Shown in pieces: positions 60,521 through 63,996 of a DNA stretch of 64,000 nucleotides; within the stretch, counting starts at the first letter, position 1; every line of letters begins with the position of its first letter. Both the position numbers and the translations under genes were made by a program. Under the pieces are notes generated by a model that saw nothing but the letters and a program-made list of their open reading frames with translations, was not told the origin of the DNA and did not search any database. This stretch comes from Thalassovita mediterranea (lineage in GTDB: Bacteria; Pseudomonadota; Alphaproteobacteria; Caulobacterales; Hyphomonadaceae), in assembly GCA_019448215.1 (NCBI GenBank), contig CP080408.1, positions 434,001-498,000 of the forward strand, read 5' to 3'.

Positions 60521-60611
60521 GGGCGGGTCTGACAACCGACGGCCCAGCGACATTCAAGGTTGACCACCTCCCGACCAGCGTTACCAACAAGGCTGGTAGA
60601 GGGGACATGAT

Positions 60612-61574
60612 ATGAAGAAGCTGAAGCTGTTTCTGGTCGCTTTGGTGATCTCGGCGCTGCCGACACCGATGCTCGCGCAGGCACCGAGCGCTTCGGTCTG
60701 TCACCCTGCCCTCGACAGGACGCTTGATATCCACACGCTGCGTCTTCACGTGCTTGGATCGATGAGCGCGGAGAAGCTGGCCCCTCAGCTCGATCCGGGT
60801 AATGGCAGCGTCACGGCAGAAACAGTGAGGACCGCCTACGCACTCTATGTCGTCAACAATCTCGGCGTTGAGCGGCTTCTGGAAGTTGCGGGCGCGCCAA
60901 ATGTTCACGGCGTGGTCCGGGTTCTGGCCAATTGCGTCGCGGCTGAAGGCGGCACCCCGGCGATGGATTGTGGCCTGCCCCCGAACTCCAACCTGTTCCG
61001 CAGGTCGCAGACCTTTTCGCAAGAGCGAAACTGGGCACGGGCCGCGATGAAAACATCCTTCGACCCGGCCTACGGCCCTGAGACTGTCGAGTTTCTGGCG
61101 GCAAACCTGGGCAGTTGCGTACTGGAGCCAGGCCGCCTCAAATCCGATGCTGAGGTGGCAGCCGACGCCTATGCGGCGACGCAGGCCCCACGACCAGTTG
61201 AAGAGTGCTGGCAGGTTGCCGGGACGATCCAGTCCTTCATCGACAATCCGGGCTATTCATACTCATCGTCGGGCATGTCCTATGAACGCAGCGCCAGCGC
61301 GAGCGAGCGCGACTGGCTGTCGAAATGGAAAACCAGGGTCGCGAACGGCAATCCGCAATGCGTTGCCGATTACCCGAAGCGCATACTCACCCTCTCCCGG
61401 CAGATTCAACGCCAGCGCCAGTCAGCCGCCGCCGCAGAAGAGAAACGCTATCGCCTCAGCCGGGCCAATCAGGGCCCTTCAGCGGAAGAAATCTTCCAGC
61501 GCTGGGATACAATGAACTCAGCCTACAGACGCTGCATCGAGCTTTATGGCGATTGCCGGTGGGTGGAGGAGTAG
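60612..61574 (+). CDS. Secreted protein of unknown function
   Basis: 320 residues, AGAGGGGA upstream of ATG. A signal peptide (about 1-22, ending PMLAQ) precedes a mature protein with cysteines at HP-type positions (VCHPALDR, NCVAAE, DCGLPP, SCVLEP, ECWQVAG, QCVADY, RCIELYGDCRWVEE), nine in all, probably disulphide-linked. A Gln/Arg-rich helix (SRQIQRQRQSAAAAEEKRY) lies near the C-terminus. No domain recognised. The REP-like module begins 13 bp after its stop. Confidence 0.65.
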   Translation: MKKLKLFLVALVISALPTPMLAQAPSASVCHPALDRTLDIHTLRLHVLGSMSAEKLAPQLDPGNGSVTAETVRTAYALYVVNNLGVERLLEVAGAPNVHGVVRVLANCVAAEGGTPAMDCGLPPNSNLFRRSQTFSQERNWARAAMKTSFDPAYGPETVEFLAANLGSCVLEPGRLKSDAEVAADAYAATQAPRPVEECWQVAGTIQSFIDNPGYSYSSSGMSYERSASASERDWLSKWKTRVANGNPQCVADYPKRILTLSRQIQRQRQSAAAAEEKRYRLSRANQGPSAEEIFQRWDTMNSAYRRCIELYGDCRWVEE

Positions 61575-61588
61575 AGAACGCAGTTTCG

Positions 61589-61640
61589 CCCCCTCCGCCC
61601 TGCCGTCCTTCGACAGGCTCAGGATGAGGGGCGGAGGGGG
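61589..61640. repeat. Left REP-like palindrome of the DUF559 module
   Basis: CCCCCTCCGCCC (61589-61600) pairs perfectly with GGGCGGAGGGGG (61629-61640). Inside is TCCTTCGACAGGCTCAGGA, a core that I recall from extragenic repeats of Caulobacterales and sphingomonads. The right arm GGAGGGGGAG runs into the ribosome site of the DUF559 gene. Confidence 0.8.
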
Positions 61641-61648
61641 AGCTGAAC

Positions 61649-61999
61649 ATGCGTGACGGCGCGAAGACGAAACTAGCCCGTTCGATGCGCAAAGCCCCGA
61701 CCTCAGCGGAAGCGAAACTATGGACCAGGTTGCGCAGGCGCCAGATCGCCGACTGCCGGTTCAGGCGCCAGCATCCGGTTGGGCCGTTTGTCGCTGACTT
61801 CGCCTGTGTTGAACGCAAAGTGATTGTAGAGGTCGATGGCGCGACGCATTCGACGGAGGCCGAATGGGCATATGACCGGAAACGGACAGAACTACTGGAA
61901 GCAGAAGGCTGGAAGATCGTGCGGGCGAGCAATGTCGAGGTCTATGGGAATTTGGATGGTGTGCTGGAGGCGATCAGGCTTGCCTTGATTGAGAGGTAG
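61649..61999 (+). CDS. DUF559 endonuclease-like protein
   Basis: 116 residues with TSAEAKLWTRLRRRQ, CRFRRQHPVGPFVADFACVERKVIVEVDG (Vsr/PD-(D/E)XK-like core: Asp in ADF, Glu in VEVDG, Lys before it) and HSTEAEWAYDRKRTELLEAEGW, the full DUF559 signature. The family is related to very-short-patch-repair nucleases, but its cellular role is not known. The Shine-Dalgarno GGGGGAG, 6 bases before ATG, belongs to the preceding palindrome. No methylase gene accompanies it. Confidence 0.88.
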   Translation: MRDGAKTKLARSMRKAPTSAEAKLWTRLRRRQIADCRFRRQHPVGPFVADFACVERKVIVEVDGATHSTEAEWAYDRKRTELLEAEGWKIVRASNVEVYGNLDGVLEAIRLALIER

Positions 62000-62001
62000 T
62001 C

Positions 62002-62117
62002 GCCCCCTCCGCCTGCCGGCACCTCCCCCGTCCACGGGGGAGGATGACTTATCGCGACGTCTCGTATCTTCTTCCTCCCCCGCCTGCGGGGGAGGTGCCC
62101 GGCAGGGCGGAGGGGGC
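62002..62117. repeat. Right REP-like element of the DUF559 module
   Basis: A long imperfect inverted repeat: arm 62002-62029 pairs with 62088-62117 apart from two one-base bulges. Nested inside are two matching hairpins, CCTCCCCCG-TCCA-CGGGGGAGG (62022-62043) and CCTCCCCCG-CCTG-CGGGGGAGG (62074-62095). It also serves as the likely terminator of the nuclease gene. Confidence 0.85.
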
Positions 62118-62166: not shown

Positions 62167-63045
62167 ATGGCTGACGATGTGATGACGGGGATGGTCCCGC
62201 CGCTTTTTGCTGATGTGCCGAAAAGCGTGTCCTTCAAGAAATTGCGCAAGCGGATTGTGCGTAGCGCGCTGCAGGCGGTTGACCAGTATGGCATGGTCGA
62301 CCGCGCCCGCACGGGGGAGCCGCCGAAATGGCTGGTCTGCCTGTCAGGCGGCAAGGACAGCTATGGCCTGCTGGCCGCACTGATCGATTTGAAATGGCAA
62401 GGCGCGCTTCCGGTGGAGCTGATTGCCTGTAATCTTGATCAGGGTCAGCCCGGTTTCCCAAAACACGTCCTGCCAGAATGGCTGGACAAGGTCGGCGTCA
62501 AATACCGGATCGAGACCGAAGACACCTATTCCATCGTGACCGAAAAAGTGCCGGAGAACCGGACTTTCTGTTCGATGTGTTCGCGCCTTCGCCGGGGCAT
62601 TCTCTACCGCATTGCGCGCGAGGAAGGCTGCGAGGCGATCGTGCTCGGCCATCACCGCGACGATGCGCTTGAGACCTTCATGATGAACCTCATCCATGGG
62701 GGCCGGATGGCAGCGATGCCGCCAAAGCTGCTCAATGATGCGGGCGATCTTTTCGTGCTGCGCCCGCTGATCACTTGCGCTGAGGACGACCTTGCGAAGT
62801 TTGCCGAGGCGATGGAATTTCCGATCATCCCTTGCAACCTCTGTGGGTCGCAGGACGGACTGCAGCGTCAGGCGATGAAGGCGATGCTGGATGAGTGGGA
62901 GCGCAAGAAGCCGGGCGTGCGGCAGGTCATGGCGCATGCGCTGGCGACCGTGCGGCCGAGCCACCTACACGACCCGCGCGTCTTTGACTTTGCGGGCCTC
63001 GCTTTGGGCGGCACCGGCGAAGACGACCCGAACGTGCCTTTCTAA
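62167..63045 (+). CDS. ttcA: tRNA-cytidine(32) 2-sulfurtransferase
   Basis: 292 residues; TtcA thiolates cytidine 32 of tRNA using an iron-sulfur cluster. The PP-loop is [17 protein letters not shown], the cluster cysteines are in [11 protein letters not shown] and ITCAEDD or IPCNLCGSQ, and [15 protein letters not shown] is conserved. The C-terminal ending [16 protein letters not shown] is repeated at 63927-63996. The first ATG lacks a strong ribosome site. It converges on the next gene with an 18-bp gap. Confidence 0.95.
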
Positions 63046-63063
63046 GTCATCATCATTCCGACC

Positions 63064-63774
63064 TTAATTGGCCGCGGACCATTCAGCGCTCATTTCGTAC
63101 GGAATGAATATCTCTAGTTCCAAAGGCCCCGATGGCTGGGTGATCACACGCGACTCCAGCCCCGATACCGTGACCTTGCCTGCGCCCATCTGACTCTGAA
63201 GCTGTTCGACCGAGGCGATGATGTCGGCGAGCAGCGCGTCTCGCCGCGTTCCCATATTACGAGCCCCAATAAATTGCTCGCTTCCCAGATAAGCTTCGGC
63301 GCGGCCCTCTGGCCTAACACTGTCTAGAAAATCATTGGCGCGCGCCATGACATCGTCAAAAGTCTCGTCCGCCGCGACATCGACACTGAGCGTCAGCGTA
63401 AAGCTGGCCCTATTGCCGTAAAGGGAGAAGACATCGGTGAACTTCACCGACTCGATTGGTGCCGAGGTTTCGCCGATGTCGCCGCCGCTCAATTCGAACC
63501 CGCTCGTGGCGGCAGCCTTGGCAATCAGGCGGTCGTATGAGGTTTTTAGCTCCTGTTCGCGTTCTTCGGCATCACGGGAGCCACTTTGGAAGTTTACTTC
63601 AACAAGCACAAAATCAGCCGGTATCACGCTGTAGATCGCTGGAGCTGACCGCAAGTCATCAACATCAATCTGCGACGCGGTAACTGTAACGGTCTGCTGG
63701 CGGATATCTTGCGCGCGAGCTTCCGGAATAGTGAGGGCCAGGCCAGCCAGCGCCGAGAGGATGACAAGTTTCAT
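63064..63774 (-). CDS. Secreted protein of unknown function
   Basis: About 236 residues from ATG 63774 (AAGGTGC upstream). A signal peptide ending EARAQ precedes a mature domain that begins with QTVTVTASQIDVDDL; the following IPADFVLVEVNFQSGSRDAEEREQELKTSYDRLIAKA and GNRASFTLTLSVDV suggest alternating strands and helices of a SIMPL/DUF541-like fold, though the match is weak. It lies between the two ttcA tails and may have arrived with them. Confidence 0.6.
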   Translation of the reverse strand: MKLVILSALAGLALTIPEARAQDIRQQTVTVTASQIDVDDLRSAPAIYSVIPADFVLVEVNFQSGSRDAEEREQELKTSYDRLIAKAAATSGFELSGGDIGETSAPIESVKFTDVFSLYGNRASFTLTLSVDVAADETFDDVMARANDFLDSVRPEGRAEAYLGSEQFIGARNMGTRRDALLADIIASVEQLQSQMGAGKVTVSGLESRVITQPSGPLELEIFIPYEMSAEWSAAN

Positions 63775-63904
63775 GCTGCACCTTCTATCTGAAGGTGCAG
63801 ACTGGCCCTGTATCAGTCTGCAAGCAAGAGCGATCTGAGGCGTCATCCGACCTCCGGCTGGTCGAGTTCACTATACAGGCGGAGATATCCTCAAATCCGG
63901 CACC

Positions 63905-63936
63905 GAAGACGCGCTAGATGCGGGAAGCGCGTCTTC
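63905..63936. repeat. Inverted repeat at the junction of the ttcA tail copy
   Basis: GAAGACGCGC (63905-63914) and GCGCGTCTTC (63927-63936) are a perfect 10-bp inverted repeat around 12 bases. The right arm begins exactly where similarity to ttcA begins. Confidence 0.7.
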
Positions 63937-63996
63937 GACTTTGCGGGGCTCGCGCTGGGCGGCACCGGCGAAGACGACCCGAACGTGCCGTTCTGA
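63927..63996 (+). pseudogene. Duplicated 3' tail of ttcA
   Basis: 70 bp co-linear with the last 70 bp of ttcA (62976-63045), 64 of 70 identical and no gaps. The frame reads [22 protein letters not shown] and stop. All six differences are synonymous (TTT/TTC, GGC/GGG, GCT/GCG, TTG/CTG, CCT/CCG, TAA/TGA). It has no start codon and no upstream gene, so it is a remnant. Confidence 0.9.

Follow-up and report, generated by a model that had tools for sequence, protein, structure and literature searches.

Why should a small, solitary nuclease gene lie between palindromic repeats, and is the pairing more than an accident of position? The question is raised by a DUF559 gene in the window, the 64-kb stretch of DNA analysed here, which is part of a complete 3.22-Mb genome (hereafter G000). 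The first-pass annotation had likened the locus to the REP/RAYT relationship.

Anatomy of the DUF559 locus

The features of the locus are as follows.

61588–61605, forward strand: left arm of the exact 18-bp inverted repeat
61588–61640, no strand: left palindrome, 53 nt, with outer arms CCCCCTCCGCCC/GGGCGGAGGGGG and type-A core TTCGACAGGCTCAGGATGA
61629–61640, forward strand: purine tail facing the gene, candidate Shine-Dalgarno sequence, 8 nt before the ATG
61649–61999, forward strand: DUF559 (YcjD-like, PD-(D/E)XK, Vsr-like) nuclease gene, an ORF of 116 aa
62002–62117, no strand: right REPIN-like inverted pair of triplex motifs
62003–62043, reverse strand: intrastrand triplex motif, hairpin plus mirror third strand, 8/8 (motif scan)
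62074–62116, forward strand: intrastrand triplex motif, hairpin plus mirror third strand, 8/8 (motif scan)
62100–62117, reverse strand: right arm of the exact 18-bp inverted repeat

The protein matches PF04480 (DUF559) with an E-value of 4.8e-34 and 117 bits, compared with a Pfam cut-off of 20.6, and D50, E61, D63 and H67 are invariant in the seven sequences formed by this protein and six relatives. By its gathering score and its conserved acidic residues (D50, E61 and D63), it belongs to the PD-(D/E)XK/DUF559 proteins. A search of the PDB by sequence gave a single match, 3hrl_A (“endonuclease-like protein”), with an E-value of 1.5e-17. The closest named relative found, a Henriciella marina gene, is 87% identical to the window gene, and the dN/dS of 0.059/0.861 between the two indicates that the window gene is under purifying selection and is kept by selection. 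G000 has four DUF559 family matches, comprising three short genes and a 21-bit piece of a long frame, and each of the three short genes has matching palindromes on its two sides. The upstream neighbour of the window gene is a 320-aa gene with no Pfam match. The downstream neighbour is a PP-loop gene (62167–63045), presumably ttcA-like. Residues 270–292, at the C-terminus of this ttcA-like protein, are repeated at 63925–63993 and bracket an ORF (63064–63846), such that a duplicated gene end surrounds an inserted gene within 63064–63993. LexA control by GTTC-N7-GTTC was ruled out, as neither this site nor GAAC-N7-GAAC occurs at 61301–61700.

The exact 18-bp inverted repeat that the first-pass annotation had reported around the gene was recovered at 61588–61605 and 62100–62117. 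That annotation had also placed palindromes on both sides; the left flank is indeed a 53-nt palindrome, whereas the right flank is an inverted pair (62002–62117). The left palindrome shares its outer arms with the right-hand repeat type, but not its core, TTCGACAGGCTCAGGATGA; it is a chimera in which triplex-repeat arms enclose a type-A core. It had been said to supply the Shine-Dalgarno sequence of the gene: its purine end GGGCGGAGGGGG does lie 8 nt before the ATG, a position from which it could play this role. In the right pair, each motif reads CCTCCCCC-loop-GGGGGAGG-loop-GGAGGGGG, a polypyrimidine hairpin and then the mirror of its purine arm, with 8/8 third-strand matches, a layout that, as read from the sequence, is the geometry of an intrastrand purine triplex. 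The scan found only these two purine triplex motifs in the window, both in the right flank, and CCCCTCCGCC and the CCTCCCCCG..CGGGGGAGG palindrome likewise occur, within the window, at the DUF559 locus only. Across the genome, there are 10 CCTCCCCCG..CGGGGGAGG palindromes (2 at the window locus) and 25 matches to the type-A core with at most 2 mismatches (1 at the window locus), and the dispersed repeats therefore number in the tens rather than hundreds. Inverted pairs similar to 62002–62117 were found elsewhere in G000. The arms of the 18-bp repeat, taken at first pass for terminal inverted repeats, are the outer ends of two different repeat copies, and the “530-bp module” of the first-pass annotation is therefore a convenient span and no proven unit. 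The CTGACGCC sequence downstream of the right arm is also present in two relatives without the gene (G006 and G015).

Association of DUF559 genes with triplex repeats

We scored the best inverted match between the 400-bp flanks of DUF559 domains and of other ORFs in the same stretches. None of the samples was random. The 60 loci of the host family were taken mostly by rank for the first 40, with contig ends skipped, and the third batch was hand-picked to take in the other two DUF559 genes of G000; one locus was dropped from this test for a short flank (n = 59). The class sample (Alphaproteobacteria) held 40 loci from the upper part of the match list, one per genome, and the sample of other Pseudomonadota held 20 loci from 18 genomes outside Alphaproteobacteria. 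Scores of at least 16 were reached by 43/59 DUF559 domains of the host family, compared with 2/378 neighbouring control genes and 4/1744 random intervals. The corresponding figures were 21/40, 2/228 and 5/1172 in Alphaproteobacteria, and 12/20 against 1/114 control genes in other Pseudomonadota. At a score of at least 18, 1/1744 random intervals and 2/378 control genes of the host family remained. The random-interval and control-gene rates rule out a chance inverted repeat. DUF559 genes are thus flanked by repeats well above the level of other genes, as the first-pass annotation expected; the pattern that it would have put down to chance, with hundreds of copies and no enrichment near DUF559 genes, is not the one observed. 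Direct repeats scoring at least 30 surrounded the gene at 20/59 family loci (0/378 controls) and 9/40 loci in Alphaproteobacteria (2/228 controls).

The repeats are concentrated next to the gene. Hairpin density was 6.3–6.7 per kb within 100 bp of the DUF559 domain and at most 0.29 per kb in every bin past 300 bp, and 54 of 100 DUF559 loci had a hairpin on both sides within 300 bp. A triplex motif lay within 500 bp at 93/120 DUF559 loci (45/60 in the family, 30/40 in Alphaproteobacteria and 18/20 in other Pseudomonadota); the 27 loci without one in this range speak against a nuclease dedicated to these repeats. No such motif was found at 30 GIY-YIG loci or at 30 DUF1801 loci, taken from among the matches listed and centred on the locus middle for this count. 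Near and far from DUF559, the motif densities were 1.41 and 0.026 per kb in the family, 1.32 and 0.035 in the class, and 2.43 and 0.218 in other Pseudomonadota. The nearest upstream run was purine at 100 and pyrimidine at 7 of the 120 loci, and the nearest downstream run was pyrimidine at 98 and purine at 14, indicating that purine tails face the gene. This bias is limited to the run nearest the gene, and tail direction across all motifs showed none (92 versus 101).

For the arm GGGGGAGG, an exact mirror was found in 24 of 62 cases and an exact direct copy in one. Over all asymmetric arms in Alphaproteobacteria (n = 299), mirrors numbered 40 and direct copies 9, whereas outside this class there was no excess (15 versus 15 of 89); the test is of use for a single arm class, and within Alphaproteobacteria only. 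A relaxed TM-ECO consensus (second loop 2–6) occurred near DUF559 at 11/60 family, 12/40 class and 12/20 other Pseudomonadota loci.

The GIY-YIG family was intended as a negative control, but inverted palindromes (score at least 16) flanked 13 of 30 of its genes. As these palindromes turned out to be of another class, a further control was drawn from the same genomes: DUF1801, also a small family, gave 0/30, with three hairpins in total. All 39 GIY-YIG hairpin arms are of mixed sequence and none is pyrimidine/purine, whereas 232 of 268 DUF559 arms (109/132, 72/84 and 51/52) are at least 85% pyrimidine or purine, a cut that, like the arm types, was set after inspecting the repeats; exact gene positions were used in this comparison. 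The mixed GIY-YIG arms and the empty DUF1801 sample indicate that the repeat class is specific to DUF559 and not a general trait of small accessory genes. GIY-YIG genes resemble DUF559 genes as small nuclease genes that can lie between inverted palindromes, but the nuclease is unrelated, the palindromes are of mixed sequence and the triplex motif is absent from the 30 loci. The GIY-YIG loci of the host family (L328–L357) may represent a second nuclease-repeat system with mixed-sequence palindromes, and two of the 25 type-A core matches in G000 lie within 1.1 kb of each of two GIY-YIG genes. Phage or plasmid cargo was rejected as an origin, since DUF559 occurs in 44 of 72,556 plasmid records, some of the 44 being chromosome-sized, and in 5 of 50,697 phage records.

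Co-evolution, copy number and alleles without the gene

The 60 family DUF559 genes carry the arm types GGGGGAGG (21), GAGARGG (19), GGGGAGGG (6), GGGGAAGG (6) or none (8, excluded from the counts). The nuclease tree covers 108 columns and has 57 inner branches, of which 29 are starred; on it, repeat type changes 8 times, compared with a mean of 24.8 and a minimum of 17 in 1000 label shuffles. Shuffles within the 12 genomes that have at least two types gave a mean of 18.7 and a minimum of 11. When a single gene stood for each locus cluster (37 clusters, 34 typed), there were 7.35 versus 17.3 changes (0/2000 shuffles). In the host family, every clade of the nuclease has a repeat sequence of its own; within G000, the window gene belongs to the GGGGGAGG clade and its two paralogues to the GAGARGG clade.

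Dispersed palindromes were counted in 105 family genomes with the pattern CTCCCC-N0-8-GGGGAG, which detects one repeat class only. Copies beside DUF559 genes were subtracted, using the measured number at the 60 loci and their mean (0.85 per locus) for the remaining genes. A hand tally gave 101 DUF559 genes in 51 genomes; another 7 genomes, out of 58 that had some DUF559 match, contained only fragments or long-protein matches and were counted as lacking the gene. The median was 7.15 in the 51 genomes with DUF559 and 2.5 in the 54 without it (Spearman 0.43; within-genus permutation 0/5000). By genus, the values with and without the gene were 14.15 and 0 in the genus of G000 (p = 0.0006) and 8.15 and 3 in g4 (p = 0.003); g10, one of the three genera, was not significant alone (12.45 and 5, p = 0.058). 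A cruder subtraction of 4 palindromes per gene, which we judged too harsh, abolished the signal. Repeats also occur in genomes without DUF559, such as G015 with 12 palindromes, which again speaks against a dedicated nuclease.

Alleles without the DUF559 gene exist among the relatives. In the gap upstream of the ttcA-like gene, G015 has no repeat, G004 has an inverted pair alone, G006 has one REP alone, and G009, a relative placed in the same genus as G000, has REP-DUF559-REPIN. This gap (60523–62117; L070–L082 in relatives) shows gene turnover with or without repeats. The gene-less G015 matches the window to 60523 and again from 62111; the right limit therefore agrees with the repeat end, whereas the left one does not, and the left module limit of 61588 was not borne out. 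At the gyrB site, G000 has its third DUF559 gene, which, like the G006 orthologue, is enclosed by two inverted pairs (~140 bp). In G009 and G015 this site lacks both the gene and any triplex-type repeat, and G009 has a type-A-like palindrome pair instead. Around the DUF559 gene of G009, the inverted pairs form 116-bp direct repeats that are 94% identical, and the three dispersed copies compared are 73–79% identical. These flanking repeats and the differences between alleles fit gain or loss by repeat recombination, with either polarity. No clean empty site, at which the target site duplication of an insertion sequence could be recognised, was found at the window, gyrB or E. coli sites.

Knowledge of the BoxC/PIT/TM repeats of E. 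coli goes back to the 1990s. TM-ECO, which has been equated with BoxC and PIT, has 23 copies in K-12 and is reported to form a triplex in vitro, whereas the window sequence is assigned by its geometry; the same 2015 survey linked the triplex motif, present in more than 260 genomes, to instability, and its authors stated that they had found for it neither a mobility activity nor a function common to the flanking genes (PMC4666352). The E. coli DUF559 gene, ycjD, lies between sapF and fabI (PMC12817139). The survey lists the sequence CCCTCGCCCCTCTGGGGAGAGGGTTAGGGTGAGGGG, present in the 3′ flank of ycjD, as TM-ECO no. 9, between ycjD and fabI, in its Table 1 (PMC4666352). Triplex repeats are present on the 3′ side only, and the 5′ hairpin is of another kind, a further point against a dedicated nuclease. 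This 5′ hairpin (L408, about 2938–2980), CACCTCATTCTGACA...TGTCAGAATGAGGTG, is long, perfect and non-triplex and reaches the annotated ycjD start; one strain that lacks ycjD has a shorter relative of it downstream of sapF. A sapD-ycjD-fabI query was held to at least 80% in 3,362 of 5,426 E. coli genomes, and two genomes outside that set, whose locus was read out, have efflux genes in place of ycjD. A repeat-only search was sampled at 60 evenly spaced rows, of which one, a plasmid, was dropped; the median number of repeat places was 14 in 38 rows with ycjD and 3 in 21 without it, a contrast that rests on few clades and in which “without” means no ycjD feature under the best match (two such loci were read out). 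The ycjD rows H201–H204 (8–10 places) are not above eight ycjD-less rows with 8–13.

Possible roles of the nuclease

In REPIN/RAYT systems, the gene lies between inverted palindromes, dispersed pairs occur, the repeat class is tied to the gene, and copies are more numerous with it (PMC8049555, PMC3733652). DUF559 loci have the same properties: a small gene between inverted palindromes, dispersed inverted pairs, a gene-specific repeat class, and copies that are commoner where the gene is present. The window gene is flanked by inverted dispersed palindromes, as in a REPtron. However, the RAYT enzyme is an HUH Y1 transposase (PF01797) and DUF559 is a PD-(D/E)XK protein (PF04480); the DUF559 repeat adds a mirror third strand, and the GTAG/CGTC tag of REPs is rare (within 8 nt of 10/526 purine/pyrimidine runs in a loose run-based count). 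A RAYT encoded in the same genome was ruled out, as G000 has no PF01797 match at E ≤ 0.001. The window locus thus appears to work like a REPIN/RAYT system but is no member of the REPtrons, because it has the wrong enzyme. The REP/RAYT-like association proposed at first pass is strongly supported by the enrichment over control genes, the lack of Y1, the co-evolution of nuclease and repeat, and the gene-less alleles; the repeats themselves have to be renamed as triplex motifs of the BoxC/PIT kind, without the classic GTAG tag.

Like BoxC/PIT/TM-ECO, the window repeats are intergenic inverted pairs of a polypyrimidine hairpin with a mirror purine third strand, present in both window motifs at 8/8. 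They differ in the arm, CCTCCCCC, and in a second loop that is a small hairpin rather than 3 nt; both letters and second loop depart from the TM-ECO consensus, CCCTCNCCC-N3-6-GGGNGAGGG-N3-GGGNGAGGG. We therefore class them as triplex repeats by predicted geometry and not by the E. coli consensus. In the literature consulted, no gene partner is described for BoxC/PIT/TM-ECO, unlike the DUF559-paired repeats. The window protein is in the same superfamily as Vsr and Caulobacter VsrA (CCNA_02930): VsrA carries DUF559 and has a proposed role in T:G mismatch repair (PMC12907096), and the YcjD profile finds Vsr (PMC1189080). The terms “palindrom” and “inverted repeat” are absent from the main text of the VsrA paper (PMC12907096), and the open-licence literature, as far as it was covered, yielded no paper tying DUF559/ycjD/Vsr nucleases to such palindromic or triplex repeats.

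We think it probable that DUF559 is a dedicated nuclease of intrastrand-triplex repeats (BoxC/PIT/TM type), an unrelated enzyme in a RAYT-like role. The DUF559 gene lies beside or between repeat copies with purine tails towards it, and shorter inverted pairs without a gene would be the dispersed copies. The nuclease would recognise the folded repeat, as a hairpin or triplex in single-stranded DNA such as the lagging strand, and nick or cut it. Repair or recombination from another copy could then copy, move or delete repeats and gene. The outcome would be that of RAYTs for REPINs by different chemistry; mobilisation of the repeats by the nuclease is inferred.

The closest rival to this reading, which we consider rather unlikely, is a selfish gene of the homing type, whose nuclease would cut a gene-less repeat so that repair copies the gene in, with repeat spread as a by-product. 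The gene is often found between direct repeat copies (pairs 94% and 92% identical), G006 has a single REP where G009 has REP-DUF559-REPIN, two Rhizobium phages contain partial matches annotated as homing endonuclease, and one locus cluster holds different nuclease clades and repeats (L160 versus L182/L186/L187), all of which would suit homing. However, homing alone does not explain the larger number of dispersed repeats in genomes with DUF559, and the gene-less gyrB alleles of G009 and G015 have no triplex-type repeat as a landing pad. Next comes a protective role after the model of Caulobacter VsrA, namely that a Vsr-like repair nuclease resolves folded repeats or mismatches and is kept near them to limit their damage. 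VsrA is SOS-induced, and cells without the methyltransferase ScmA require it for their SOS response (PMC12907096); the window gene is under purifying selection; but clade-specific flanking repeats would not be needed, dispersed repeats are more rather than fewer where DUF559 is present, and the LexA-type sites are missing at 61301–61700, which makes such a role improbable.

The position of the gene could also reflect the landing of small accessory genes in unstable, repeat-rich gaps. Rearrangement is raised at TM sites (PMC4666352), and genes turn over at sapF-fabI and upstream of the ttcA-like gene. Such hitchhiking is already unlikely, and we give it the least weight of all: DUF1801, small and in the same genomes, scored 0/30, the GIY-YIG palindromes are of a different class (0/39 arms pyrimidine/purine), and within-genome shuffles never match the observed tree fit.

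The hitherto uncharacterised ycjD/DUF559 is now tied to triplex repeats by position, co-evolution and copy number. The spread of these repeats is so far unexplained, and the recurrent pairing across many proteobacteria suggests a partner enzyme. If a dedicated nuclease is confirmed, a widespread family of “unknown function” would gain one, and DUF559 proteins taken for mismatch-repair enzymes merit a second look. Tentatively, and with more doubt than belief, we suggest a new system of repeat dissemination from Henriciella to E. coli, in which a triplex-reading PD-(D/E)XK nuclease would act through break-repair copying with no transposase; GIY-YIG nucleases and their own palindromes would be a second, independent instance. 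If so, “nuclease plus private palindrome” would be a general design of bacterial genomes. The old BoxC question becomes testable in E. coli K-12 by a single-gene deletion. BoxC pairs are variably present between E. coli strains at fepB-entC (L410), lldD-trmL (L413) and alx-sstT (L411); no clean target duplication was seen at any of these sites, and the stretch missing at fepB-entC is larger than the BoxC repeat itself.
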